Positions 26,448 through 42,025 of a DNA stretch of 64,000 nt are shown here, in pieces (the stretch's first letter is position 1; every line of letters starts with the position of its first letter). Source of the stretch: Mycetohabitans endofungorum. Its GTDB lineage: Bacteria; Pseudomonadota; Gammaproteobacteria; Burkholderiales; Burkholderiaceae. The DNA is taken from contig NZ_CP132744.1 in the NCBI RefSeq assembly GCF_037477895.1, forward strand, positions 1,302,001 through 1,366,000, in the 5' to 3' direction. The notes beneath the pieces were generated by a model, which was not told the origin of the DNA, ran no database searches, and saw only the letters and a list, made by a program, of their open reading frames with translations. A program made the position numbers and the translations under genes.

Positions 26448-26565
26448 GGCTCCGCGCGGCTTGCGGCCGGCGCATCACCTCGGGCGTACACCCAATGCGC
26501 CTGCAACCCATGCCCAACTCATGCCAATTTTCTATCGCAAGGCATACCCAGGTGAATTTTTTGAC

Positions 26566-27070
26566 TGGAGTTGACCCCGTAGCCCCGGACACGACCTCAC
26601 GCTACGGTTGATGAATCCACGGTGCGTCGAAACTCGCGCGGTGAGCGATATTTCAGCGCGCTATGGGGATGCTTCTCGTTGTAATGCTCAAACGCAATGG
26701 CGAGATTGGGCACGGCCGTCGCCGCATCCGATTTTGGCATAAAGGCCACGTAATCGCGCTTCATCGTCTTCACGAAGCTCTCAGCCATGCCGTTACTCTG
26801 TGGACTGCACACCGGCGTCGTCTGCGACTTCAGGCCGATTTCAGTTGCGAAGCGGCGCGTTTCGTCGGCCGCCAGCATCACATCACGCACCACGTCGCCG
26901 CTATAGCCAGCCGTCGTCGCCACCCAGCTTATCGCTTCGCGTTCGCAGCAATCCAGCGCGAACGTCACGCGCAGCGCCTCGCCATTGTCGCAACGGAACT
27001 CAAAACCGTCTTAAGCCTACCCGCTAGTTTAAGTAGCTGACTGTGTCCGGTGATTCACGGGGCTGCTCCA
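26566..27070. mobile_element. IS3-family element remnant with both ends
   Basis: About 505 bp. The left end (26566-26592, starting TGGAGTTGACCCCGTAGCCC) has an imperfect inverted counterpart at 27043-27070 (GTGTCCGGTGATTCACGGGG and onward to CTCCA), so both terminal inverted repeats seem to survive. Between them only the C-terminal part of orfB remains, on the minus strand. orfA and the start of orfB are deleted near 27012. It marks the left boundary of the foreign segment after lon. Confidence 0.6.
26597..27012 (-). pseudogene. IS3-family transposase orfB, C-terminal fragment
   Basis: The frame reads from about [15 protein letters not shown] through [17 protein letters not shown] to [22 protein letters not shown] and [21 protein letters not shown]. 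These are the second half of the rve integrase core of IS3 OrfB, including the last catalytic Glu (NGMAESF). A stop codon and sequence loss precede the fragment. The first catalytic Asp is outside, so it is inactive. Confidence 0.85.
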
Positions 27071-27360
27071 TGGACAGTCTGCTTGCGAAGAGCGGCAGGC
27101 AAATGGATGACTCGCTTCCCTTTAATGCGCTTCTTGCCTGTGGGTGCCGCTCGCTCAAGGGCGTGAATCACTGTCAACGCCAGAAAATGATGGCAGACGC
27201 TTTACAGTCTTTTAACGCGGCGTTAAGCGTTGCGATTACCTGAACCTTTCTGGCGGCTCTTGATAGCTGGGCATAGTGCTTGCGGATTCTGAAGCACTTA
27301 ACGTCGAACTGATGGGTCAGCGGACGGGTGCGTTGCCGTATGGCTCAATAAAAGTTATGT

Positions 27361-27389
27361 CTGGAGGAGTAAATGAAGAAGTCCTCCAG
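27361..27389 (+). promoter_or_regulatory. Hairpin over a strong Shine-Dalgarno
   Basis: CTGGAGGA (27361-27368) pairs perfectly with TCCTCCAG (27382-27389). The stem buries GGAGGAG and the loop contains an ATG at 27373. The arrangement could gate translation of the 15-residue frame below or simply be chance. Confidence 0.4.
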
Positions 27390-27420
27390 TCCTGAACCCG
27401 GTGCCTGTGCGGTGCGCTGA
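27373..27420 (+). CDS. Possible 15-residue leader peptide
   Basis: ATG at 27373, preceded by GGAGGAG at 5-nt spacing, opens MKKSSSPEPGACAVR followed by TGA. It lies 177 nt upstream of the NRPS start. The ribosome site is the best in this leader and is sequestered in a hairpin. A role as a leader peptide controlling the NRPS is speculation. Confidence 0.3.
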   Translation: MKKSSSPEPGACAVR

Positions 27421-27596
27421 CGCGTGCCGATGAATGACCCTGACTGCCGCAGTGAGTGGTTAAAAATTGCACGCGACGTGTGATAAAAGCCGGAGCGGTT
27501 CCCGAAGAACAACAATAGATTCCGATTGCGTCGTTATATTAATTGGTACACCTATTAATTAACAGGCTGCTTAGTCGCCTGAATCGGAGCTTTTTT

Positions 27597-30500
27597 ATGG
27601 ATGCTTGCATCACGCCCGTTACCCAGCCGTTATCCAGTGCGCAAACCGAAGTTTGGCTCGCGCAGCAACTACATCCAGACAGCCCTGTTTACAACATTGC
27701 GCAGTACACGGTGATCGATGGCTTGATTGATGCGACCGTCTTTGAAGCGGCATTGCGCCAAGTCATCGATGAGGCCGACACCCTGCGCTTGCAATTTGTC
27801 GATAGCAATGACGGGCTGCGGCAGAGGATCGGTGCACCCGCATGGTCAATGCCGGTGCTGGACCTCACGTCAGAAGCTGATCCTCAGGCAGCAGCCCAGG
27901 CGTGGATGCGCACCGATTATGAACAGTCGGTGGATCTACTGCAGGGGTCGCTTTTTCAGTATGCATTGTTGAAAGTCGCGCCCGAGCAGTGGTTTTGGTA
28001 TCAGCGCTATCACCATATCATGATGGATGGATATGGCCAGTACCTGATCGCGCAACGCGTTGCACATGTGTATAGCGCGCTGTGTGCTGGGAATGAGCCC
28101 GCGTCCTGTACGTTGGGCTCGGTGCTGACGCTGTTAGAAAGCGATGCACAGTATCAGACCTCCGCGCAGCGGGAGAAGGACGAAGCGTATTGGTTCAAGC
28201 ACTGCGCCCATTGGCCTGAGCCTGCGACGCTAGCAAGTCGCGCAGCCCCGGCTTTACAGCAACGACTGCGTCAGACGGCTGACCTGGCCACCCAATGGGT
28301 AGACGACTATGTGTTGGATGCGGGTCGGCTGGCGCAGTTCTTGAGCGCTGCACTGGCCGCGTATCTGCATCGCATGACCGGCGCGCAGGACGTGGTGTTC
28401 GGTTTTCCAGTGACTGCCCGCTTGGGGGCAGACTGGCACATTCCTGGCATGGTCGCCAATACGGTTCCATTGCGGTTCAGATTCGAGCCGGAGATCAACT
28501 TAGTGTCGTTGATGCGGCAGGCGGCGAAAGAAATCCAAAGCGCACTGCAATATCAACGCTACCCGAGCGAAGCGCTGCAGCGTCAACTTGGTCTGGCGCC
28601 GGGGCAGTCACTATTGGGCATCAAGGTCAACGTGATGCCGTTTGACTACGCGCTGTCGTTTGGCGGGCATTCATCGACGAGCCATAATCTGCTCGCGGGT
28701 CCGGTTGAGGATCTGATGATCGGTGTTTATTGGACACCCAATAGCCGTCAATTACGGATCGACTTTGATGCCAATCCTGCTTGCTACACCGCGGAGATGC
28801 TCGACACGCATCAGCGCCGGTTTATCCGGTTCATGCAAGTGCTCGCTGCCGATGCCATGCAACCGATTAGCGAGATCGATCTGCTCGACGCCGACGAGCG
28901 GTATCGGCTGCTGGTCGAGTGGAATGCGACGCAGCGGGACTACCCGTCGTACTTATGCATCCACCAGTTATTCGAAGCGCAGGTCGAGCGCACGCCCGAG
29001 GCAGTGGCACTGGTGTATGAAGATCAAACGTTGAGCTATGCGCAGCTGAACGCACAGGCCAATCGCCTCGCGCACCAGCTGATCGAGTTAGGCGTCAAGC
29101 CGGACACGCGCGTGGCGATCTGCATGCAGCGTAGTGCCGCGCTGGTCGTGGGGCTGTTGGCGATTTTGAAAGCCGGCGGTGCGTATGTGCCGCTCGATCC
29201 GAGCTACCCGGGCGAGCGCTTGGCGCACATCCTCGCCGATGCGGCACCTCGCATTGTGCTCGCCGATGCAGCTGGGCGCGCTGCATTGGGTGAGGCGGCG
29301 CTCGCGTCCTGCACGGTGCTCGATCCGGCCACCTCGCCAGCATTGCCGGACACCAATCCATCGGTAGCCGAGCTCACCGCCCAGCATCTGGCGTATGTGA
29401 TTTATACGTCGGGCTCGACCGGTATACCTAAGGGGGTAATGGTGCCGCATCGTGCGATTGCGCGGCTGGTTATCAACAATGGCTATGTTGACATCCGCAC
29501 CGATGATCATGTGGCGTTCGCAGCGAACCCGGCCTTCGACGCGAGCACGTTTGAAGTGTGGGCACCGCTGTTAAATGGCGCCACTGTCGTCCTATTCGAT
29601 CGGGATGCGGTGCTGAATCCCCAACGTCTAGAGGAGACACTGACACGATACAGGGTGACCACACTTTTTCTGACAACGGTGTTATTCAATCAGCTGGTTC
29701 CTTTGATGGCCCCGGCTTTGGCGCGATTGAAATATTTGCTCTGTGGTGGAGAACAAGAGAACCCTGAGCGCTTCGCGCAGCTGCTAAAGCATGACGGGCC
29801 GAAGCATTTGATCCACTGCTACGGGCCGACCGAGAATACGACTTTTTCAACGACTTATGAGGTCACTGAGCTTGGCGATCGATCTGAACGTTTACCGATT
29901 GGCCGGCCGATTGCGAACACGCGCGTTTATCTGCTCGATGCGCACGGCCAGCCGGCGCCACTGGGTGCAGTCGGTGAGTTGTATATTGGTGGTGCGGGGG
30001 TCGCGCGCGGTTATTTGAATCGCCCGGAGTTGACCGCCGAGCGTTTTGTGCCGGATCCGTTCTCCAATGACGCGGGTGCACGGCTGTATAAGACCGGGGA
30101 TTTAGCGCGTTATTTACCGGACGGCAATCTGGAGTTTGTGGGGCGCAACGATGAGCAAGTGAAGATCCGCGGCTTTCGCATTGAGCCGGGCGAGATTGCA
30201 GCGTGCTTAACGGTGCATCCGCAGGTGCGCGACGCGGTGGTGCTGGCAACCGGTGAGGGCTCGGATAAACGTCTGGTCGCGTATGTGGTGGCTGATCCGG
30301 ATGACGCGCTAGCGAGCACGCTGCGCGCGCAGGTGGCGGCAGCATTGCCCGAATATATGGTGCCCAGTGCATTTGTGCGGCTCGATGCGTTTCCGCTGAC
30401 ACCGAACGGCAAGCTGGATCGCCGAGCGTTGCCCGCACCGGATGATGCGGCGCTCGCGCATCAAGCGTATGAAGCGCCACAAGGCGAGCTCGAGACGACG

Positions 30501-33500
30501 CTCGCGGCGATCTGGGCCGAACTATTGGGTGTCGAACGCGTGGGGCGGCACGACAGTTTCTTTGCGCTCGGGGGCCACTCGCTGCTGGCGGTGCGGTTGA
30601 TTGAGCGCCTGCGGCGTCAGGGAGTTGGGTTATCCGTGCGCGCGCTGTTCGACACGCCGGTGCTTAGCGCGCTGGCGCAGACGTTGGGTCAGCGCCGTGA
30701 CGTGGTGGTGCCTGCGAACGCGATCACGCCCGACACCACGGCGATTACGCCGTCGATGCTGCCACTCATTGAGCTGACGCAAGCGGACATTGATAAGATT
30801 GTCGAGCAGGTGCCCGGTGGTGTGGCCAATATCCAGGACATTTATGCACTGTCGCCACTGCAAGACGGGCTGCTGTTTCACCATCTGTTGGCCACCGAGG
30901 GTGATCCGTATTTGTTGATCGTGCAGCTGGCGTTTGACACGCGCGAGCGGCTTGACCAGTATCTGCACGCGCTGCAGCAGGTAATCGATCGGCACGATAT
31001 TTTGCGTACCGCGTTTGTCTGGGAAGGGCTGTCCATGCCCTCGCAAGTGGTATGGCGCCACGCACGGCTGCCGGTCACCGAGCTGACGTTGGACGCCGCG
31101 GACGGGCCGATCGCCGAGCAATTGGCGCGGCGCTTTGATCCGCGTCACACACGCTTGGATCTGACGCAAGCGCCGCTGCTGCACGGTGCGATCGCCCAGG
31201 ATAGTGAAGGTTGCTGGTTGCTCACGCAGCGGCTGCACCATTTGATTGGCGATCATTCAACGCTGAAAGTGATGCACGCGGAGGTGCAGGCGTTCATCGA
31301 GGGTCGAGGCGACACCCTGCCGCCGGCGCAGCCGTTCCGCCAGCTGGTCGCGCAGGCACGCCTGGGTGTCAGTCAGGCTGAGCATGAGCGTTTCTTTACT
31401 GAGCAGCTCGCGGACATCGACGAGCCGACGTTTCCGTTTGGCCTAACGGACGTGCATCGAGACGGCGCACAGGTTGCCGAAACGCACCGGATGTTGCCGC
31501 AAGCGCTAAACGACCGACTACGGAAGCAGGCTAAGCGGCTGGGCGTGAGTCTGGCGAGCCTGTGCCATCTGGCGTGGGCGCAGGTGCTCGCGCGCGCCAG
31601 TGGCCAACCACGCGTGGTGTTTGGCACCGTGCTGTTTGGGCGGATGCAAGCGGGAGACGGTGCCGACAGTGCGATGGGCTTGTTTATCAATACACTGCCG
31701 CTGCGGGTGGACTTGGCCGATAGTGTGGAGGCGGCGGTGCGCGCCACGCATGCGCGGCTCGCTGCGTTGCTTGAGCATGAGCATGCGTCGCTGGCACTGG
31801 CACAGCACTGCAGTGGTGTGCCAGCCGGCACGCCACTGTTTAGCGCGCTGCTAAATTATCGGCACAACGCGCCGGGTTCAAGCGAGCGTGGCATCCTCCC
31901 CGGTGTGGAGCTGCTGTACACCGAAGAGCGTGACAATTATCCGATCGGGCTGTCGGTGGAGGACGATGGGCAGTCGTTGGGGCTGACGGCACAAATCGTT
32001 GAGCCACAGGAACCTGCCCGACTGTGTGCGTATATGCAGCAGGCGCTGCAAAGCTTGGCCGACGCGCTCAAGGCGACACCTGACACCGCAGTGCAGCAGT
32101 TGCAGGTGCTGCCCAAGGCGGAGCGCGAGCTGCTGCTTGATACATGGAATGCGACGCAGCAGGACTATCCGGCACACTGGTGCGTGCATCAGCTATTCGA
32201 AGCGCAGGTTGAGCGCACCCCCGAAGCGTCGGCGTTGGTGTTTGAAGATCAGACGTTTAGCTATGCGCAACTGAACGCCCGGGCCAATCGCCTCGCGCAT
32301 CGGCTCATTGAATTGGGCGTCAAGCCGGATGCTCGAGTGGCGCTCTGTGTTGAGCGCTCGCCGGCGATGGTCGTGGGGCTGTTGGCGATTTTAAAGGCCG
32401 GCGGTGCGTATGTGCCGCTCGATCCAAACTATCCGAGTGAGCGCTTGGCGCATATTCTGGCCGATGCGGCCCCGAGCATTGTGCTCGCCGATGCAGCCGG
32501 GCGCGCTGCGTTGGACGAGGCGGCGCTGGCCGAGTGCACGGTGCTCGATCCGGCCACCCTGCCAGCGTTGCCGGACACGAATCCGTCGGTGGTGGACCTG
32601 ACGGCCCGGCATCTGGCGTATGTGATCTATACGTCCGGCTCGACTGGCACACCCAAGGGCGTAATGGTGGAGCATCGAAGTGTCGTGAACCTTGTTCAAG
32701 CTGTGATCGGTTATTTCGATATTGGCCCCTTCAGCCGGATCTTGCAGTTTGCTTCGCTCGGTTTTGATGTCAATGTTTCCGAGACATTCATCGCATTAAA
32801 TCGTGGGGCAAGCTTATATTTACCGCCCGATACAGCGCGCCATGATCGCACTGAACTGTGGCGTTATTTGGAAAAGCACGCGATCACATACGCGGACATT
32901 CCCCCCGCACTGCTGCAGGCAGGCGACGATTTACCTCATTTAAACACCCCTCTGACGCTAATTTTAGGCGGTGAAGCTCCCAGTACGACGCTACTTCGAA
33001 ATTTGGTCCGTCAAGGCGCGGTGGTTTTCAATGCATACGGCCCAACCGAAACGACTATCTGCTCCACTGTTTGGCGTGGCTCACAAGATTTCAATGGCGA
33101 AGTGGTTCCGATTGGCCGGCCATTAGACAACACGCGAATTTATCTACTGGATGCACACGGTCAGCCGGTACCACTGGGTGCAGTCGGTGAGTTATATATT
33201 GGTGGCGTAGGGGTAGCACGCGGTTATCTAAACCGCCCGGAGTTGACCGCCGAGCGCTTCGTCACAGACCCGTTTTGCGACGTTGAAAACGCCCGCATGT
33301 ACAAAACTGGCGATGTAGCGCGTTATTTACCGAACGGTAATCTGGAGTTTGTGGGGCGCAACGATGAGCAAGTGAAGATTCGCGGCTTTCGGATTGAACC
33401 GGGTGAGACCGAAGCGTGCTTAACGGCACACCCGCAGGTGCGTGATGCGGTGGTGCTGGCAACCGGTGAGGGCGCGGATAAGCGGCTCATTGCCTATGTG

Positions 33501-36500
33501 CAAGCCGAAGCGGACAAGCAACTCGCGAGCACACTGCGCGCGCAGGTGGCGGCGAGCCTGCCCGAGTATATGGTGCCCAATGCTTTTGTGCGGCTCGATG
33601 CGTTTCCGCTGACACCGAACGGCAAGCTGGATCGCCGAGCGTTGCCCGCACCGGATGATGCGGCGCTCGCGCATCAAGCGTATGAAGCGCCACAAGGCGA
33701 ACTCGAGACGACGCTCGCGGCGATCTGGGCCGAACTATTGGGTGTCGAACGCGTGGGGCGGCACGACAGTTTCTTTGCGCTCGGGGGCCACTCGCTACTC
33801 GCGGTGCGGTTGATGAACCGGGTCAGAGCGCTGGGCGCTGACGTGCCGCTGGCGACGTTGTTCGCGACGCCCACGTTGGCCGCGTTTGCCGCGGCGCTCG
33901 AAGCCCACTTGCAGCAAGGCACCGATGCGCTGCCCGAGATCATGCCGGTGTCGCGTGAAGGCGGTTTGCCGCTGTCGTTCGCGCAGCAGCGGCTGTGGTT
34001 CCTCGCGCAGCTCGATGGGGTTAGTGACACATATCATATTCCGCTGGCGCTGCATGTGCGCGGGCCGCTTGATCGGGCCGCATGGCAACAGGCATTAGAT
34101 GCGCTGTTTGCCCGTCATGAAGCGCTGCGCTCAACGTTTGTGAGCGTTGACGGTCAGCCGCAGGTGCGGCTGCTGCCGGCAGACACGGGCGTGCCGCTGC
34201 GCTGGCATGACCTGCGCAGCGTACCAAACGCGCCGGCGAAACTGGCCCGCTTGCGTCACGAAGCCGCGCACGCGCCGTTCGATCTGGCGCGCGGCCCGTT
34301 GATTCACGCGTGCGGCATTCAATTGGCCGACGACGAACATGTGGTGCTGCTCACCCAGCACCATATTGTGTCGGATGGCTGGTCGGTCGGGGTGCTCACG
34401 CGCGAGTTAAACGCGCTGTATGCGGCGAGCGTTGGGGCGCAAGCCGATCCGCTGCCGCCGCTGGCGGTTCAGTATCCGGACTATGCGGCGTGGCAACGAC
34501 AGTGGCTCACGGGCGAGCGGCTGCAGGCGCAAAGCGACTACTGGCGCGCGACGCTGGCCGACGCACCTGTGCTGCTAACACTCCCGACCGACCGGCCGCG
34601 CCCGGCACAACAGTTGTTTGCCGGTGCGCAGGTGCCAGTGCACATTGAGGCGGCCACGACGCAAGCGCTCAAGCGCTTAAGCGCGGAGCATGGCACGACG
34701 CTATTTATGACGGTGCTTGCCGCATGGAGTGCGGTACTCGCGCGCCTGTCGGGTCAATGTGATGTGGTCATCGGCACGCCCAGCGCTAATCGTAACCATC
34801 GCCAGATCGAGCCGTTGATTGGTTTTTTTGTCAATACGCTGGCGTTGCGTGTGAATTTGGAGGGCGAGCCGACGACGGCACAACTGCTCGAGCGCGTGCG
34901 GCGCACGACGCTGGACGCGCAAGCACACCAGGATTTGCCATTCGAGCAAGTCGTCGAGATCGTGCAGCCGCCGCGTCGGCTCGATCATACGCCGTTGTTC
35001 CAGGTGATGTTGGCGTGGCAGAACAATGAGCCAGGCGAGTGGCGCCTACCTGGGCTCACGGCCATGCCGGCTGAGCTGGAGTATGACGCAGTGAGGTTTG
35101 ATCTCGAACTGAACTTATCTGAGGCAGACGAGGAGATCATCGGCAGCTTAGGGTATGCGACGGCGTTGTTCGACCGATCCACGATTGAGCGGCACGTTGG
35201 GTATCTGCAGACGATGTTGCAGGCGATGGCCACCCATACGCGGCAACCGGTGTCAACGTTTGAGTTGCTGTCACCGGATGAGCGTCAGTTGCTGCTGCAG
35301 ACATGGAATGCGACGCAGCAGGCGTATCCGGCGCACTGGTGCGTGCACCAGCTATTCGAAGCGCAGGTCGAGCGCACGCCCGAGGCGACGGCGCTGGTGT
35401 TTGAAGACCAAACGTTGAGCTATGCGCAGCTGAACGCACAAGCCAATCGCCTCGCGCATCAGTTGATCGAGCTGGGTGTCAAGCCCGATGCGCGGATAGC
35501 GATCTGCGTTGAGCGCAGTGCCGCGCTGGTCGTGGGGCTGCTAGCGATTTTGAAAGCCGGGGGTGCGTATGTGCCGCTAGACCCGAGCTATCCGAGTGAG
35601 CGCTTGGCGCACATCCTCGCCGATGCAGCACCGGCGATTGTGCTCGCCGATGCGGCCGGGCGCGCTGCGTTGGGCGACGCGGCGCTGGCCGAATGTACGG
35701 TGCTCGATCCCACCATCCTGCCGGCGTTGCCGGATACGAATCCGTCGGTGGCGGGCCTAACGGCCCGGCATCTGGCGTATGTGATCTATACGTCGGGCTC
35801 CACCGGTACCCCGAAGGGCGTGATGGTCGAGCATCGGAGCGTGGTGAACCTTGCTCTGGCGCAGATCGCCTGTTTTGGAGTGCAGCCAACCAGCCGCATT
35901 GTGCAGTTTGCGTCGTTCAGCTTTGATGCGAGTGCATTTGAAATCTTGATGGCCTTTGGCAGCGGTGCAGCATTGTATCTGTCACCCGAGATAGCTCGGC
36001 AGGATCGGCAGGCTCTGTGGGACTATTTGGCAAGCCATGCGATTACGCACGCGACTTTACCGCCTGCCCTGCTTCAACATGGCGCAGATTTGCCCAGCCT
36101 CGGTCCGTCTTTGACGCTGATTCTGGCAGGTGAAGCGCCCAGTGTAACGCTGGTTCGAGACTTGGTCGACCAAGGCACGGTCTTGAATGCCTACGGTCCC
36201 ACGGAGACGACCGTTTGTGCCACAGCATGGCGTGGTACACGTGAGTTCAGCGGCGCGGTCTCGATTGGCCGGCCGATTGCGAACACGCGCGTTTATCTGT
36301 TGGACGCGCATGGTCAGCCGGTGCCACTGGGTACGGTCGGCGAGTTGTATATTGGTGGCGCCGGGGTGGCACGTGGCTATCTGAACCGCCCGGCGTTGAC
36401 CGCCGAGCGCTTTGTGCCGGATCCGTTCTCCGATGAAGCGGGTGCACGGCTGTATAAGACCGGGGATGTGGCGCGGTATTTACCGGACGGCAATCTGGAG

Positions 36501-39500
36501 TTTTTGGGGCGCAATGATGAGCAAGTCAAGATCCGCGGCTTTCGCATTGAACCAGGGGAGATCGAAGCATGCTTAACGGCGCACCCACAGGTGCGTGATG
36601 CGGTGGTGCTGGCAACCGGTGAGGGCTCGGCTAAGCGGCTGGTGGCGTATGTGCAGGCTGAAGCGGATGAGCAACTGGCGAGCACACTGCGCGCGCAGGT
36701 GGCGGCGAGCCTGCCCGAGTATATGGTGCCCAATGCATTTGTACGGCTCGACGCATTCCCCTTGACGCCCAACGGCAAGCTTGATCGGCGTGCGCTGCCG
36801 GCACCGGATGACGAGGCGCTCGCGCATCAAGCGTATGAAGCGCCACAAGGCGAATTGGAGACCACGCTCGCGGCGATTTGGACGGAGCTACTCGGGGTAG
36901 AGCGTGTGGGTCGGCACGACAGCTTCTTTGTGCTCGGGGGCCACTCGCTGCTGGCGGTGCAACTCATTGAGCGCCTGCGGCGTCGGGGAGTCGGGTTATC
37001 CGTGCGCGCGCTATTCGACACGCCGACTCTCAGCGCATTGGCGCAGACGTTGGGCCAGCACCGTGACGTGGCGGTGCCTGCGAACGCAATTACGCCCGAC
37101 ACGACGGCGATTACGCCGTCGATGCTGCCGCTCATTGAGCTGACGCAAGCGGACATAGACCAGATTGTCGAGCAGGTGCCCGGTGGCGTAGCCAATATCC
37201 AAGACATTTATGCGCTGTCGCCACTGCAAGACGGGCTGCTGTTTCACCATTTACTCGCGCGCGACGGCGATCCGTATCTGCTGATCGAGCAGCTGGCCTT
37301 TGACACGCGCGAGCGGCTTGACCAGTATCTGCACGCGCTGCAGCAGGTGATCGATCGCCACGATATGCTGCGCACCGCGTTCGTGTGGGAAGGTGTGTCC
37401 ACGCCCGCGCAAGTGGTATGGCGCCACGCGCGGTTGCCGGTCACTGAGCTGACGTTGGACGCCGCTGATGGGCCGATCGAAGAACAATTGGCGCGGCGCT
37501 TTAATCCGCGTCACACGCGCTTGGATCTGACGCAAGCGCCGCTGCTGCACTGTGCAATCGCGCAAGATACCGAGGGTCGCTGGCTGCTCACGCAGCGGCT
37601 GCACCATTTGATTAGCGATCACTCGACGCTGGAAGTGATGCACGCGGAGGTGCAGGCGTTTATCGGGGGGCAAGGCGACACGCTGCCGCCGGCGTGGCCG
37701 TTCCGCCATCTAGTCGCGCAAGCCAGGCTAGGCGTGAGTGAAGCCGAGTATACGCGCTTTTTTACCGAGCTGCTCGCGGACGTGGAGCCGACCCTGCCGT
37801 TTGGGCTCGCGCAGGTACAGGGCGACGGCAGTGAAGTGAGCGAGTCACACCGGATGCTGCCGTCGGCTTTGAACGATCGGCTGCGTGCGCATGCGCGGCG
37901 CCTAGGCGTGAGTTTAGCGAGTCTGTGCCATCTGGCGTGGGCACAGGTGCTCGCCCGCGCGAGCGGCCAACAACGCGTGGTATTTGGCACCGTGCTGTTC
38001 GGGCGCATGCAAGCGGGCGACGGCGCAGATCGGGCGCTGGGGTTATTCTTGAATGTCCTACCGCTGCGCGTGGACCTGGATGGTAGCGTGGAGTCGAGTG
38101 TATATGCCACGCACGCTCAACTGGCGGCATTGCTCGAACATGAACATACGCCACTGGTGCGCGCGCTGCGTTGTAGTGGCGTGCCCGCCGGCTCGCCACT
38201 CTTTAGTGCGTTGTTAAATTACCGTCACAATACTCTCTCGACAGATAGCAGCGAAATATTGGCTGGCGTCCAATTTTTGAGGGCACAAGAGCGAAGCAAC
38301 TATCCACTGATATTGTCGGTGGAAGATTACGGTACCGCGCTCGGACTGACCGTGCAGATCGTACAACCTGGCAATCCTGATCGAGTTTGCGGTTACATGC
38401 AGCAGGTACTCGAGAGCTTGGCCGAGGCACTGGATTGCATGCCCAATCAGCCCGCTCAGCAGTTAAAGTGGCTGCCTAACACCGAGCGCGAACAATTGCT
38501 TCGGACATGGAACGCGACACAGCAAGCGTACCCAGCTCACCAGTGCGTTCACCAACTGTTTGAAGTACAGGTAAAGCGTACGCCAGAGGCGACGGCGCTG
38601 GTCTATGAAGGCCAGATGCTAAGTTATACGCAGCTTAATGCACGGGCTAACCGCCTGGCGCACCAACTCATTGAGTTAGGTGTGAGGCCCGATGCGAGGG
38701 TGGCGATCTGTGTGGCACGGAGTCCCGCAATGGTGGTGGGGCTGCTGGCGGTCCTAAAAGCGGGCGGCGCGTATGTGCCACTAGATCCAGCCTATCCGAG
38801 CGAGCGGCTCGCGCATATCCTATACGATGTGGTACCAGAAATCGTGCTAGCTGATGCGGCGGGCCGGGCCGCTCTGGGTGACGCAGCGCTCGCGTCCCGC
38901 ACGGTGCTTGACCCGAACTCATTGGCGGAACAGGCAGACACGAATCCTTTGGTGCCGGAGCTGACGTCCCGTCATCTTGCGTATGTGCTCTACACCTCCG
39001 GCTCCACCGGCGCTCCGAAGGGCGTAATGGTTGAACATCGCGGCGTGATGAACCTTGTGCACGCGCAGATTGCCCGCTTCGATGTGCGCGCGACCAGCCG
39101 CGTATTGCAGTTTGCCTCACTCAGTTTCGATGCGAGTATCTCCGAGATTCTGATGGCGTCTGGCAGCGGTGCGACATTGTATTTGCCGCCCAATACAGCC
39201 CGTTGGGATCAGCGCGAGCTTTGGACTTATTTGGCAAGCCACGCGATCACGCACGTGACGTTGCCACCCGCGATGCTTCAACAGGGCAAGGCACTGCCTA
39301 TCTTAAGTACGCCCTTGACGCTGATTCTCGCGGGTGAAGCTCCTGATGCGGCATTAGTACAGCATTTAAGCCAATACTACGCCGTCTTCAATGCGTATGG
39401 CCCGACAGAAGCAACCGTTTGCGCCACCGTATGGCGTGGTGCACGTGACTTCAGCGGTGAAGCCCCGATTGGCCGGCCGATTGCGAACACGCGCGTTTAT

Positions 39501-41051
39501 CTGCTCGATGCGCAGAGCCAGCCGGTGCCACTAGGTGCGGTTGGCGAGCTGTATCTTGGTGGCGCCGGTGTCGCACGGGGCTACCTGAACCGCCCAGAGC
39601 TGACGGCCGAGCGCTTTGTGCCGGATCCGTTCTCCGATGAAGCGGGTGCACGGCTGTATAAGACTGGGGATTTAGCGCGTTATTTACCGGACGGCAATCT
39701 GGAGTTTGTGGGGCGCAACGATGAGCAAGTGAAGATCCGCGGCTTTCGGATTGAACCGGGTGAGATCGAAGCGTGCTTAACGGCGCACCCGCAGGTGCGT
39801 GATGCGGTGGTGCTGGCAACAGGCGAGGGCTCGGCTAAGCGACTGGTGGCGTATGTGCAGGCCGAAGCGGATGAGCACCTTGCGAGCACGCTGCGTGCAC
39901 AGGTGGCGGCGAGCCTGCCTGAGTATATGGTACCCAGTGCGTTTGTGCGGCTCGATGCGTGGCCCTTGACGCCCAACGGCAAGCTGGATCGGCGTGCGCT
40001 GCCCGCACCGGACGCTGACGCGCTGGCGCATCAAGCGTATGAAGCGCCGCAAGGCGAGCTGGAGATGACGCTCGCGGTGATCTGGGCCGAGCTATTGGGT
40101 GTCGAACGTGTGGGCCGGCACGACAGCTTCTTTGCACTCGGGGGCCACTCGCTGCTGGCCATGCGCCTGATCAATCGCGTACGCACAGCGTTAGGAGTTG
40201 ATCTTGCCATTCGCACGCTGTTTGAGGCATCCACCCTCGCAGGCTTAGCACGCCATTTAGTTAAGCATGACGGGATGCAAGGAGACTCGTTTTCCGTTCT
40301 ACTTCCTCTTAAGCCCACAGGCAGCCGTCCTGCTCTTTTCTGCATTCATCCCGGATTTGGTTTGAGCTGGAGCTATATGGGTCTGTCCAGTTACCTTCCC
40401 CCGGATCAGCCCCTTTATGGCTTGCAGGCTCGTGGGTTAGATGGAACAAGCCCGCTTGCATCGACCCTTGATGAGATGGTGTCAGACTATCTTGAACAAA
40501 TGCGCCGTGTTCAACCCAAAGGGCCTTACTGCTTATTAGGATGGAGCTTCGGCGGCAATGTGGCGCATAGCATGGCTGTTCGACTTGAACACCAAGGCGA
40601 AGAAGTAGCGTTGCTGGCGTTACTGGATAGTACCCCTTTTGCGGGAAAAGCTTTCGAAGAGCAAGGAAATCAATTTGACCAGGCGATGGTGAGAGAGGTG
40701 TTTGCCGCCCACTATGGCAACGAATTAGTTTCGGCGATGGATAAGCATTTATTGGAAAACACCGAGAAAATTGGAAAGAATAATGGGCGTATCGTAAGAG
40801 ATTATTCTCCATCGCGGTACGGTGGGGATGCGCTATTGTTTCGAGCCACGGTAGCAGAGGCGGGAGGTGAAACGCTCGTCACGCCTGATGCGTGGAAACC
40901 GTATGTGCTCGGGGAGATAGAGGTTCATAATGTTCACTGTCGCCACGGAGAAATGCTTAAGCCAGAGTCAACGGCCATTATTGGTTCCATCCTAGAGCGT
41001 GTTATGCACTTTCAGCAAGTCTCAGAGTGGAATCGAGATGGAGAAACGTAG
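27597..41051 (+). CDS. Four-module nonribosomal peptide synthetase, C-A-T/CE-A-T/C-A-T/CE-A-T-TE
   Basis: 4484 aa from the ATG at 27597, which has GGAG seven bases upstream; a further-upstream TTG (27543) is not favoured. Domains: C1 (about 9-430, HHIMMDGYG at 139); A1 (437-945); T1 Ser995; dual C/E (1048-1508, extra HHLLATEGD at 1095 and HHLIGDH at 1214); A2 (1515-2018); T2 Ser2066; LCL C3 (2112-2560, HHIVSDGWS at 2255); A3 (2567-3069); T3 Ser3117; dual C/E (3172-3628, HHLLARDGD at 3217); A4 (3635-4138); T4 Ser4185; TE (4227-4466, GWSFGG with Ser4317, Asp4344, His4450). By-eye specificity codes: A1 DAFFLGCTFK (Val/Ile-like), A2 DVSDLGAICK (unassigned), A3 DAFTLAAVCK (Phe-like), A4 DASTLAAVCK (Tyr/Phe-like). 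The predicted chain is D-1, L-2, D-3, L-4. C1 implies N-acylation or an upstream donor. The last 19 codons come from an inserted IS. No tailoring, MbtH or export gene is adjacent. Confidence 0.93.
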   Translation: MDACITPVTQPLSSAQTEVWLAQQLHPDSPVYNIAQYTVIDGLIDATVFEAALRQVIDEADTLRLQFVDSNDGLRQRIGAPAWSMPVLDLTSEADPQAAAQAWMRTDYEQSVDLLQGSLFQYALLKVAPEQWFWYQRYHHIMMDGYGQYLIAQRVAHVYSALCAGNEPASCTLGSVLTLLESDAQYQTSAQREKDEAYWFKHCAHWPEPATLASRAAPALQQRLRQTADLATQWVDDYVLDAGRLAQFLSAALAAYLHRMTGAQDVVFGFPVTARLGADWHIPGMVANTVPLRFRFEPEINLVSLMRQAAKEIQSALQYQRYPSEALQRQLGLAPGQSLLGIKVNVMPFDYALSFGGHSSTSHNLLAGPVEDLMIGVYWTPNSRQLRIDFDANPACYTAEMLDTHQRRFIRFMQVLAADAMQPISEIDLLDADERYRLLVEWNATQRDYPSYLCIHQLFEAQVERTPEAVALVYEDQTLSYAQLNAQANRLAHQLIELGVKPDTRVAICMQRSAALVVGLLAILKAGGAYVPLDPSYPGERLAHILADAAPRIVLADAAGRAALGEAALASCTVLDPATSPALPDTNPSVAELTAQHLAYVIYTSGSTGIPKGVMVPHRAIARLVINNGYVDIRTDDHVAFAANPAFDASTFEVWAPLLNGATVVLFDRDAVLNPQRLEETLTRYRVTTLFLTTVLFNQLVPLMAPALARLKYLLCGGEQENPERFAQLLKHDGPKHLIHCYGPTENTTFSTTYEVTELGDRSERLPIGRPIANTRVYLLDAHGQPAPLGAVGELYIGGAGVARGYLNRPELTAERFVPDPFSNDAGARLYKTGDLARYLPDGNLEFVGRNDEQVKIRGFRIEPGEIAACLTVHPQVRDAVVLATGEGSDKRLVAYVVADPDDALASTLRAQVAAALPEYMVPSAFVRLDAFPLTPNGKLDRRALPAPDDAALAHQAYEAPQGELETTLAAIWAELLGVERVGRHDSFFALGGHSLLAVRLIERLRRQGVGLSVRALFDTPVLSALAQTLGQRRDVVVPANAITPDTTAITPSMLPLIELTQADIDKIVEQVPGGVANIQDIYALSPLQDGLLFHHLLATEGDPYLLIVQLAFDTRERLDQYLHALQQVIDRHDILRTAFVWEGLSMPSQVVWRHARLPVTELTLDAADGPIAEQLARRFDPRHTRLDLTQAPLLHGAIAQDSEGCWLLTQRLHHLIGDHSTLKVMHAEVQAFIEGRGDTLPPAQPFRQLVAQARLGVSQAEHERFFTEQLADIDEPTFPFGLTDVHRDGAQVAETHRMLPQALNDRLRKQAKRLGVSLASLCHLAWAQVLARASGQPRVVFGTVLFGRMQAGDGADSAMGLFINTLPLRVDLADSVEAAVRATHARLAALLEHEHASLALAQHCSGVPAGTPLFSALLNYRHNAPGSSERGILPGVELLYTEERDNYPIGLSVEDDGQSLGLTAQIVEPQEPARLCAYMQQALQSLADALKATPDTAVQQLQVLPKAERELLLDTWNATQQDYPAHWCVHQLFEAQVERTPEASALVFEDQTFSYAQLNARANRLAHRLIELGVKPDARVALCVERSPAMVVGLLAILKAGGAYVPLDPNYPSERLAHILADAAPSIVLADAAGRAALDEAALAECTVLDPATLPALPDTNPSVVDLTARHLAYVIYTSGSTGTPKGVMVEHRSVVNLVQAVIGYFDIGPFSRILQFASLGFDVNVSETFIALNRGASLYLPPDTARHDRTELWRYLEKHAITYADIPPALLQAGDDLPHLNTPLTLILGGEAPSTTLLRNLVRQGAVVFNAYGPTETTICSTVWRGSQDFNGEVVPIGRPLDNTRIYLLDAHGQPVPLGAVGELYIGGVGVARGYLNRPELTAERFVTDPFCDVENARMYKTGDVARYLPNGNLEFVGRNDEQVKIRGFRIEPGETEACLTAHPQVRDAVVLATGEGADKRLIAYVQAEADKQLASTLRAQVAASLPEYMVPNAFVRLDAFPLTPNGKLDRRALPAPDDAALAHQAYEAPQGELETTLAAIWAELLGVERVGRHDSFFALGGHSLLAVRLMNRVRALGADVPLATLFATPTLAAFAAALEAHLQQGTDALPEIMPVSREGGLPLSFAQQRLWFLAQLDGVSDTYHIPLALHVRGPLDRAAWQQALDALFARHEALRSTFVSVDGQPQVRLLPADTGVPLRWHDLRSVPNAPAKLARLRHEAAHAPFDLARGPLIHACGIQLADDEHVVLLTQHHIVSDGWSVGVLTRELNALYAASVGAQADPLPPLAVQYPDYAAWQRQWLTGERLQAQSDYWRATLADAPVLLTLPTDRPRPAQQLFAGAQVPVHIEAATTQALKRLSAEHGTTLFMTVLAAWSAVLARLSGQCDVVIGTPSANRNHRQIEPLIGFFVNTLALRVNLEGEPTTAQLLERVRRTTLDAQAHQDLPFEQVVEIVQPPRRLDHTPLFQVMLAWQNNEPGEWRLPGLTAMPAELEYDAVRFDLELNLSEADEEIIGSLGYATALFDRSTIERHVGYLQTMLQAMATHTRQPVSTFELLSPDERQLLLQTWNATQQAYPAHWCVHQLFEAQVERTPEATALVFEDQTLSYAQLNAQANRLAHQLIELGVKPDARIAICVERSAALVVGLLAILKAGGAYVPLDPSYPSERLAHILADAAPAIVLADAAGRAALGDAALAECTVLDPTILPALPDTNPSVAGLTARHLAYVIYTSGSTGTPKGVMVEHRSVVNLALAQIACFGVQPTSRIVQFASFSFDASAFEILMAFGSGAALYLSPEIARQDRQALWDYLASHAITHATLPPALLQHGADLPSLGPSLTLILAGEAPSVTLVRDLVDQGTVLNAYGPTETTVCATAWRGTREFSGAVSIGRPIANTRVYLLDAHGQPVPLGTVGELYIGGAGVARGYLNRPALTAERFVPDPFSDEAGARLYKTGDVARYLPDGNLEFLGRNDEQVKIRGFRIEPGEIEACLTAHPQVRDAVVLATGEGSAKRLVAYVQAEADEQLASTLRAQVAASLPEYMVPNAFVRLDAFPLTPNGKLDRRALPAPDDEALAHQAYEAPQGELETTLAAIWTELLGVERVGRHDSFFVLGGHSLLAVQLIERLRRRGVGLSVRALFDTPTLSALAQTLGQHRDVAVPANAITPDTTAITPSMLPLIELTQADIDQIVEQVPGGVANIQDIYALSPLQDGLLFHHLLARDGDPYLLIEQLAFDTRERLDQYLHALQQVIDRHDMLRTAFVWEGVSTPAQVVWRHARLPVTELTLDAADGPIEEQLARRFNPRHTRLDLTQAPLLHCAIAQDTEGRWLLTQRLHHLISDHSTLEVMHAEVQAFIGGQGDTLPPAWPFRHLVAQARLGVSEAEYTRFFTELLADVEPTLPFGLAQVQGDGSEVSESHRMLPSALNDRLRAHARRLGVSLASLCHLAWAQVLARASGQQRVVFGTVLFGRMQAGDGADRALGLFLNVLPLRVDLDGSVESSVYATHAQLAALLEHEHTPLVRALRCSGVPAGSPLFSALLNYRHNTLSTDSSEILAGVQFLRAQERSNYPLILSVEDYGTALGLTVQIVQPGNPDRVCGYMQQVLESLAEALDCMPNQPAQQLKWLPNTEREQLLRTWNATQQAYPAHQCVHQLFEVQVKRTPEATALVYEGQMLSYTQLNARANRLAHQLIELGVRPDARVAICVARSPAMVVGLLAVLKAGGAYVPLDPAYPSERLAHILYDVVPEIVLADAAGRAALGDAALASRTVLDPNSLAEQADTNPLVPELTSRHLAYVLYTSGSTGAPKGVMVEHRGVMNLVHAQIARFDVRATSRVLQFASLSFDASISEILMASGSGATLYLPPNTARWDQRELWTYLASHAITHVTLPPAMLQQGKALPILSTPLTLILAGEAPDAALVQHLSQYYAVFNAYGPTEATVCATVWRGARDFSGEAPIGRPIANTRVYLLDAQSQPVPLGAVGELYLGGAGVARGYLNRPELTAERFVPDPFSDEAGARLYKTGDLARYLPDGNLEFVGRNDEQVKIRGFRIEPGEIEACLTAHPQVRDAVVLATGEGSAKRLVAYVQAEADEHLASTLRAQVAASLPEYMVPSAFVRLDAWPLTPNGKLDRRALPAPDADALAHQAYEAPQGELEMTLAVIWAELLGVERVGRHDSFFALGGHSLLAMRLINRVRTALGVDLAIRTLFEASTLAGLARHLVKHDGMQGDSFSVLLPLKPTGSRPALFCIHPGFGLSWSYMGLSSYLPPDQPLYGLQARGLDGTSPLASTLDEMVSDYLEQMRRVQPKGPYCLLGWSFGGNVAHSMAVRLEHQGEEVALLALLDSTPFAGKAFEEQGNQFDQAMVREVFAAHYGNELVSAMDKHLLENTEKIGKNNGRIVRDYSPSRYGGDALLFRATVAEAGGETLVTPDAWKPYVLGEIEVHNVHCRHGEMLKPESTAIIGSILERVMHFQQVSEWNRDGET
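30372..30583 (+). repeat. Intra-NRPS repeat, copy 1 (A1 end to T1)
   Basis: 212 bp covering the A10 motif NGKLDRRALP and the carrier-protein core. It matches 33585-33796 with one mismatch by my reading (G at 30488 versus A at 33701). Confidence 0.85.
33585..33796 (+). repeat. Intra-NRPS repeat, copy 2 (A2 end to T2)
   Basis: The second copy of the 212-bp near-identical segment, 3213 bp downstream of the first. Sequence on either side diverges more, which points to recent duplication or gene conversion between modules 1 and 2. Confidence 0.85.
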
Positions 41052-41831
41052 AGCCTATCCTAACGACGTGACGGACGAAGAATGGCGCTTCGCTGCTGCG
41101 TATTTAACGTTGATGGGGCCAGATGCACCGCAAAGACGGTATGAATTGCGCGAGTTGTTCAACGCGCTGCGTTGGCTAGCTCGTGCGGGCGCTGCGTGGC
41201 GTATGCTGCCGACGAACTTTCCGCCATGGGAAGCGGTGTATCAGCAAACTCAACGCTGGCTGCGAACGGGCTGCTTCGAAGCGATAGTTCAGGATTTGCG
41301 TTCGGTGCTGCGTGTTGCGCAGGGTCGCCAAGGTCAGCCCAGTGCGGTGGTCCTGGACGGGCGTATGTTGCAGTCGAGCTGCGAGCGTGGCCCACGCGCA
41401 GGCTACGATGGTTACAAGCGCAAACGGGCAAGCAACGTGCATATGGCCGTCGATACGCTCGGGCATTGGCTGGCGATTCATGTCACGCCGGTCAATGAGC
41501 AAGCGCGCGCAGGTTCCGGTGTTAGCACAAGAGGGGCAACTTGTGAGCGGGCAGAGCGTGAAGCTTACCTTTGCCGACCAAGGTTATATAGGAGAAGAGC
41601 CTGCGCAAGCCGCGCAGGATGAAGGCATCGAATTGCAGGCAAAGAAGGGCTTTATCTTGCTACCGCGCCGATGGGTCGTCGAGCGCAGTTTCGAATGGCT
41701 CAATCGCTTTCGAAGGCTCGCTCGCGACGACGAGCGTTTGCCCGAAACGCTCGTCGGCCTGCATTTCGTCGTCTTTGCCATGCTCATGCTCGTTCATGCC
41801 GCACCTATCCTGCAAAGTGCATAACACGCTC
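40995..41831 (+). mobile_element. IS5-family (IS427-like) insertion sequence
   Basis: 837 bp with terminal inverted repeats: GAGCGTGTTATGCACTTT at the left end and its reverse complement at the right (from 41814). The repeats are flanked by TA on both sides (40993-40994 and 41832-41833), the target duplication expected for the IS427 group. The element sits inside the last codons of the NRPS gene on the left and against the hupB fragment on the right. Its transposase is frameshifted. Confidence 0.88.
41038..41824 (+). pseudogene. IS5-family transposase, frameshifted
   Basis: Frame 1 gives [40 protein letters not shown] and [22 protein letters not shown]. Near 41500-41512 it must change frame to continue as [30 protein letters not shown] and [32 protein letters not shown]. 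The break is at a GCGCGCGC run and looks like loss of 2 nt. A few residues usual before AKKGF are also missing. Catalytic Asp, Asp and Glu blocks are present but on two frames, so the copy is probably inactive alone. The start overlaps the NRPS stop. Confidence 0.82.
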
Positions 41832-41833
41832 TA

Positions 41834-42025
41834 AAGAAGGGCGGCAGCGTTACACTCGCTGGCTTCGACGCGTTTGCAGTGGGCAAGCACACCGCTCGCA
41901 CGGGACGCAATCCTCGCACCGGTGCCGTTATCAACATCAAGGCGACCAAAATGCCCAAATTTCGGCCAGGGAAAGCGCTGAAAGATGCAATTGACCGTGA
42001 TTTTTTCTTCCTCGCAAGAGTCTAG
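41834..42025 (+). pseudogene. hupB: HU-family DNA-binding protein, C-terminal fragment with altered tail
   Basis: In frame after the IS: KKGGSVTLAGFDAFAVGKHT, ARTGRNPRTG, then KMPKFRPGKALKDA. This is the beta arm and C-terminus of HU. The first 40% of the gene is missing. The tail then diverges to IDRDFFFLARV and a stop, instead of the normal LN ending that is found at 42957-42968. The Gly-Phe-Gly-Thr core has become GFDAF, so it is decaying. In relatives the HU gene lies between lon and tRNA-Val. Confidence 0.85.
41972..41988 (+). repeat. 17-bp direct repeat, left copy (att-like)
   Basis: AAAGCGCTGAAAGATGC within the hupB fragment, identical to 42942-42958. The copies bound a 970-bp unit carrying phage-like fragments, as expected of attL/attR at the 3' end of a target gene. 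Confidence 0.75.

Follow-up and report, generated by a model that had tools for sequence, protein, structure and literature searches.

The window, by which we mean the whole stretch of 64,000 nucleotides analysed here, spans positions 1302001–1366000 of contig C1 in a 3.55-Mb, two-contig Mycetohabitans genome (C1 and C2 denote contigs throughout, and domains are named after their modules). The closest named relatives of this genome are Mycetohabitans sp. B8, M. endofungorum and M. rhizoxinica. On its forward strand a frame runs open to 41051 from a TTG at 27543 (4502 aa) or an ATG at 27597 (4484 aa). The frame, Pfam matches and motifs identify it as a four-module non-ribosomal peptide synthetase (NRPS) gene, 27597–41051 from the ATG, encoding a single protein with the domain order Cs-A-T, E/C-A-T, C-A-T, E/C-A-T-TE. 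Pfam finds four condensation, four AMP-binding, four AMP-binding_C and four PP-binding domains and one thioesterase (TE) stretch, along with four GGHSLL motifs of carrier domains, four YTSGSTG, four NGKLDRR and one GWSFGG of the TE, all in the order expected. The domain order and His motifs, which the first-pass annotation had read directly from the letters, are borne out by the Pfam and motif positions. The top NCBIfam match is SolG (NF041803, solanimycin), with 3949 bits summed over four stretches at a cut-off of 2200; the best of these stretches spans one module, and several general A-domain models also exceed their cut-offs. Thirteen more NRPS genes of this type occur in the same genome.

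Nine neighbouring frames in the window were scanned, corresponding to ClpP, ClpX, Lon, a SurA/PPIase-type protein (PpiD by position), phosphoglucose isomerase, a YjeF/carbohydrate-kinase protein, a PurL-like protein and two IS frames. None of the nine encodes a tailoring enzyme, a transporter, an MbtH protein or a PPTase, in agreement with the earlier remark that no such gene lies nearby. Elsewhere the genome carries PPTase-family genes (C2:642995 and C1:1983650) and a single MbtH gene (C1:912418); for Mycetohabitans rhizoxinica HKI454, one such PPTase besides ACPS is described, on the megaplasmid (PMC3102044).

Condensation domains and relatives of the synthetase

The condensation domain of module 1 (27624–28910; PF00668) has an intact active-site motif, HHIMMDG at 28011, which conforms to HHxxxDG. 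Against the starter domain of RzmA (7c1h) it scores 711 bits over 419 residues, compared with 211 bits for CDA-Cs and 169 bits for EntF, and in a quick IQ-TREE analysis it groups with the Cs domains of RzmA and HolA at 100% support. Of the two types between which the earlier reading had left this domain, starter or EntF-like, the first stands and the second falls. EntF-like chemistry was rejected on the bit scores; the NCBIfam models for EntF and MxcG, too, remain under their cut-offs (1865 of 2400 and 2170 of 2300). The domain is predicted to be a true lipoinitiating starter C.

Modules 2 and 4 begin with domains that carry two His motifs each, HHLLATEGD at 30879 and HHLIGDH at 31236 in module 2 (30834–32138; PF00668), and HHLLARDGD at 37245 and HHLISDH at 37602 in module 4 (37200–38501; PF00668). 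The combination of an extra N-terminal His motif with HHxxxD(H) fits the definition of dual E/C domains, and the extra motifs agree with the published consensus HH[I/L]xxxxGD (PMC1894796, PMC10531924). In the tree both domains group with three RzmA E/C domains (98% SH-aLRT; 99% with three CalA C domains added, two of which lack the exact E/C motif), separate from four rows labelled DCL and from ordinary C domains. The module 3 domain (33960–35297; PF00668) has HHIVSDG at 34359 and clusters with two of the ordinary C domains of RzmA (99%). Motifs and tree alike uphold the dual C/E domains and the ordinary LCL domain that the first-pass annotation had assigned to modules 2 and 4 and to module 3, with the domains of modules 2 and 4 lying outside the LCL and DCL rows. 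For this tree 91 C/E domains were extracted and 67 kept after random thinning of outside rows (456 columns); its labels derive from motifs and domain order rather than biochemistry, with the DCL label on 4 rows only, and several long branches were flagged among the outside rows. E/C domains are sometimes inactive in epimerisation (74 inactive versus 394 active, with no striking difference in the motif, in the comparison given in PMC10531924), and since such domains can be idle, the D configuration predicted at residues 1 and 3 is likely but not certain.

Two described synthetases of HKI454 are also single-protein, starter-C NRPSs with a TE, namely RzmA for rhizomide (heptarhizin; RBRH_RS12370) and HolA for holrhizin (RBRH_RS16800). 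Schlegelella brevitalea DSM 7029 has served as a laboratory host for rhizomide and holrhizin (PMC8302735). In the tree, the nearest counterparts of the condensation domains of module 1, modules 2 and 4, and module 3 are the Cs, E/C and C domains of RzmA, respectively, and the code DASTIAAVCK is common to both proteins, but RzmA has seven modules, a different code order, Arg148 at the gate for the acyl group (acetyl) and a cyclic product. HolA shares the Phe code DAFTIAAVCK but differs in having six modules, C domains without the E/C motif in modules 2–6, Ala149 at the gate (octanoyl) and a linear product. Identity with the rhizomide or holrhizin synthetase was rejected, as the number of modules (four) and the code order differ, and the idea that the gene is holA, rzmA or some other plasmid-borne NRPS was likewise rejected, as eight Mycetohabitans plasmid records match at 78–86% DNA identity and the corresponding site in HKI454, HKI456 and B8 contains no NRPS. 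CalA, the calpinactam synthetase of Mortierella alpina, has the E/C logic and an identical Ile code in common with the window NRPS but contains six modules and makes a caprolactam product; its starter C is reported to be truncated and inactive (PMC9893682). From these comparisons the window NRPS can be assigned to the RzmA/HolA lineage of single-protein, starter-C-initiated synthetases, as a new member of a known family.

The closest protein is P0021, an uncharacterised NRPS on a 2.74-Mb M. endofungorum contig, with 94% identity at 100% coverage and the same four codes. It is the sole protein above 75% identity among the 120 matches listed of 1286 scored, consistent with the earlier remark that no described product with this line-up is known, and we found no described product for it. 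The two proteins have the same length and align along all 4484 aa without a gap, differing at 268 positions, and their IS-derived tails (see below) differ at one residue. Since P0021 is open with nearly the same tail at 268 differences, the altered enzyme has stayed open over appreciable divergence.

Insertion in hupB and possible origin of the gene

In M. endofungorum HKI456, M. rhizoxinica HKI454 and Mycetohabitans sp. B8 an intact hupB gene (HU) lies between lon and tRNA-Val/ppiD, and the NRPS is absent there. On the lon side, the sequence aligns with HKI456 as far as 26527, some 10 bp short of the hupB start, and the homology resumes at 41829 inside hupB, where a 3' remnant on the forward strand (41832–42025) lacks the first ~34 codons, matches PF00216 at positions 28–89 and contains one internal stop. 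This arrangement indicates that the NRPS block 26527–41829 was inserted in hupB, destroying it; other HU/IHF-type genes are still present in the genome. In the left border of the block (26528–27072), about 40 bp (26525–26565) match at 88% the segment C1:1654119–1654157, DNA upstream of a paralogous NRPS, and ~26566–27070, breaking into the upstream region, is a degraded, internally deleted IS remnant, pieces of which are 90–96% identical to one element at C1:744587–745922; we labelled it IS3-type by eye. On the right lies an IS5-type element (40995–41831, forward strand) with a transposase in two frames, recognised from its sequence, its copies and matches to DUF4096 (IS4/5 family) and a DDE transposase. 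It has 18-bp terminal inverted repeats and TA at each side, and four further near-full-length copies (72–93%) occur in the genome. The final 18 codons of the NRPS, together with its stop, come from this element, which has replaced the native end of the TE. RzmA, by contrast, has a longer native C-terminal tail, and the lost tail is poorly conserved.

Just upstream of the start codon, alignment of eight upstream regions delineated a leader of ~190 bp (27410–27596, forward strand) which is common to seven other starter-C NRPS genes, six in the same genome (C1:1653.6k, C1:215k, C2:31k, C2:53k, C2:119k and C2:245k) and one in HKI454 (C2:1862k). Its conservation suggests a shared leader or common regulation; neither a sigma-70-like site nor, at E values up to 1, an Rfam family was detected within 27410–27596. 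Over the upstream 0.5 kb and the Cs region, the C1:1640–1654 kb paralogue is 92% similar, and along the protein the nearest relative switches block by block, giving a mosaic of paralogues in which the module 1 A core is 97% like that of module 2 of the C2:234k NRPS and the module 2 A core 95% like that of module 1 of the C1:890–907k NRPS. These patterns suggest that the gene may have arisen by duplication, core exchange and IS-assisted relocation.

Several related observations concern the paralogues themselves. The paralogous four-module NRPS at C1:1640202–1653564 is broken into two frames (957 and 3590 aa), and an HKI454 NRPS at C2:1834–1862 kb is likewise split. In this genome and in HKI454, A cores look exchanged between otherwise similar modules, and codes recur across contexts.

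Adenylation codes and predicted residues

The codes were read off a MAFFT alignment of the A domains of the genus, in which two rows were incomplete, neither from the window. All four A domains lie on the forward strand, with approximate bounds, and read DAFFLGCTFK in module 1 (28971–30425), DVSDIGAICK in module 2 (32190–33638), DAFTIAAVCK in module 3 (35350–36791) and DASTIAAVCK in module 4 (38550–39995). The GGHSLL motifs of the first three carrier domains follow at 30570–30587, 33783–33800 and 36936–36953, and the module 4 T domain is at 40071–40259 (PF00550, residues 4159–4221). A text search of the literature for the ten-letter codes and their parts gave no match, and the residues were therefore anchored through the products of relatives, namely CalA, HolA and RzmA.

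According to code tables taken to be valid here, the seven codes of RzmA read Leu-Thr-Tyr-Ala-Ala-Ala-Val and the six of HolA Val-Phe-Glu-Ile/Leu-Ala-Ile/Leu. With an acetyl group and a ring, the RzmA reading gives a computed m/z of 732.3927 (716.40 with Phe in place of Tyr), and the reported mass of its product is 732.391 (PMC7804268). With an octanoyl group, the HolA reading gives 817.5069, and the reported mass is 817.503 (PMC7804268); when the other five residues are fixed, Glu alone of 18 letters fits the mass at residue 3. Both mass fits leave the order of residues unfixed. Because the two readings match the masses, we take DASTIAAVCK to specify Tyr and DAFTIAAVCK to specify Phe within the genus, an assignment that combines the assumed tables with the mass fits. 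Together with the core comparisons, it predicts Phe for module 3 and Tyr for module 4. The earlier choice of Tyr or Phe at residue 4 is thereby narrowed to Tyr, as the code anchored on the RzmA mass, and Phe is dropped, still as a prediction.

The code of module 1 is identical to that of CalA module 5, at an A-core identity of 62%. The published synthesis of calpinactam used Fmoc-D-allo-Ile and attached the caprolactam at its C-terminal side, which makes D-allo-Ile the residue preceding the caprolactam (PMC10306108). Owing to the identical code and this residue, module 1 is predicted to select Ile; of the Val or Ile suggested by the first-pass annotation, Ile is kept and Val set aside, again as a prediction.

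The core of the module 2 A domain is 94–96% identical to other DVSDIGAICK cores and 87% to a DVSDIGAISK core, and the remaining matches listed (58–65%) carry DASTIAAVCK, DVSAIGAVCK, DAFTIAAVCK or DAGAIGAVCK, in a comparison set with few domains of known substrate. Domains for Tyr, Phe and Trp are on record with a similar code, DVSAIGCVTK (PMC12283262). Residue 2 is probably aromatic, which is the weakest point of the prediction, and Trp would be a guess.

Proposed product and competing readings

Combining these assignments, we propose with moderate confidence that the synthetase makes acyl-D-allo-Ile–L-aromatic–D-Phe–L-Tyr through its starter C, E/C, C, E/C and TE domains. The starter C would acylate Ile on the first carrier domain with a short chain, probably taken directly from acyl-CoA; the E/C domain of module 2 would epimerise Ile to D-allo-Ile and condense it with residue 2, probably aromatic. 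The ordinary C domain of module 3 would then add L-Phe, which the E/C domain of module 4 would turn to D-Phe before adding L-Tyr, and the TE would release acyl-D-allo-Ile-L-Xaa(arom)-D-Phe-L-Tyr, in the simplest case as a linear acid. For the Cs domains of RzmA and HolA, direct use of acyl-CoA was inferred by the authors, who left acyl-ACP possible (PMC7804268); with direct use, an acyl ligase or ACP would be unnecessary.

Three parts of this scheme have competitors. At residue 2, DVSDIGAICK agrees with the Arg consensus at Asp235, Val236, Asp278, Ile299, Gly301, Ala322 and Ile330 (PMC12283262), and a basic, Arg-like residue in an otherwise unchanged assembly line would yield a cationic acyl-tetrapeptide. 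However, the Arg consensus has Glu239 and Thr/Asp331 where the window domain has Ser and Cys (PMC12283262), and the whole core is closest to aromatic-type cores in the compared set; we regard the basic residue as unlikely and retain the aromatic one. The length of the acyl group is gated by Cs residue 148/149, which is Arg148 in RzmA with C2 and Ala149 in HolA with C8, and the acyl chain grows along the gate series R-M-L-V-A-G (PMC7804268). In the window the gate is Gln148, in the same register as in RzmA (HH at 139–140), and P0021 likewise has Gln148; Gln is not part of the series as given in sections 7–8 of PMC7804268. A medium chain of C8 or longer, which would make the product a holrhizin-like surfactant, fits the C2 to C8 range loaded by Cs domains of the RzmA/HolA family (PMC7804268) and the nearly equal tree paths from the window Cs domain to HolA-Cs (0.34) and RzmA-Cs (0.33). 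Gln, however, is long-sided as Arg or Met, unlike Ala, and since a longer side chain goes with a shorter acyl group, a short acyl group on residue 1 is likely and the medium chain improbable. As to release, the TE (40332–40991, forward strand; PF00975, residues 4246–4465) has the Ser (GWSFGG), Asp and His expected of the triad, all present in an alignment of 13 TE domains. It is 86% identical to the RzmA TE (HKI454, G005:C1:46053) and 48% to the HolA TE (G005:C1:511847), and the RzmA product is cyclic and the HolA product linear (PMC7804268). The TEs of four other NRPSs in the same genome are 81–90% identical to it; in a TE search of eight genomes taken as the genus, matches occurred in four, and the other four genomes are small (1.1–1.2 Mb), with a single unconfirmed candidate in each of three. 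The high identity to the RzmA TE and to those four TEs would suit a TE that closes the peptide into a ring or oligomerises it, but the window product is predicted to contain no Ser, Thr or Lys, the RzmA codes include a Thr-type one, and the N-terminus of the peptide is expected to be acylated. We consider cyclisation or oligomerisation less probable, if the strongest of these competitors, and because no Ser, Thr or Lys is predicted, linear acid release is held to be the simplest outcome, with a ring or dimer possible.

A further reading is that the gene is decaying or idle and yields little or no product. The IS-derived end of the TE, the lack of the insertion at this site in HKI456, HKI454 and B8, the split NRPS frames at C1:1640–1654 kb and in HKI454, and the description of genus genomes as undergoing loss (PMC12696581) all point in this direction. 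Against it, the frame has no stop within its 4484 codons and keeps the core motifs looked for, the TE retains its Ser, Asp and His and has lost a poorly conserved tail, and P0021 keeps the frame, the codes and nearly the same tail despite 268 differences in 4484 residues. Decay appears doubtful to us, and a functional synthetase that releases the short-acyl tetrapeptide is preferred.

The products of the genus named in the literature, as far as the sources cover them, are rhizoxin, necroxime, rhizonin, rhizomide/heptarhizin, holrhizin, habitasporin, endopyrrole and lasso peptides. A short-acyl Ile-Xaa-Phe-Tyr product is not described in the genus literature searched, with subscription papers mostly outside the search and the habA and endopyrrole genes outside the comparison; within this scope the statement in the first-pass annotation that no described product has such a line-up still stands. 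A survey of 28 genomes recorded 373 BGCs and 26 similar groups (PMC12696581), and the window NRPS may already belong to one of its unnamed groups. Of the other NRPS products of the genus, holrhizin favours colonisation and habitasporin sporulation (PMC12306442, PMC11104420). If expressed, the window NRPS would extend the repertoire of a model genus of fungal endosymbionts by a small peptide not yet described, and its forecast structure is specific and hence easy to test. For acyl-Ile-Xaa-Phe-Tyr with C2, C4 and C6 acyl groups, the computed [M+H]+ values are 670.32, 698.35 and 726.39 with Trp as Xaa, 647.31, 675.34 and 703.37 with Tyr, 631.31, 659.34 and 687.38 with Phe, and 640.35, 668.38 and 696.41 with Arg; a cyclised product would be lighter by 18.01.

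A more tentative view, somewhat less likely than not, is that in this genus an NRPS gene with its own leader acts as a portable unit, which is copied, reshuffled in its A cores and moved, with IS elements assisting, into core genes, here at the cost of hupB, and is given an IS-derived end; the short-acyl tetrapeptide made would then be undescribed and carry three adjacent aromatic residues. The insertion in hupB and the mosaic build offer a concrete case of how such NRPS genes spread and change. Among the genes sharing the leader, the C1:215k NRPS has the module 1 code VDTVISFGDK, which we presume to be beta-alanine-like. In HKI454, a phenylalanine aminomutase is annotated beside NRPS genes on pBRH01 (640104–641678), which suggests a beta-amino acid in the product of those genes.
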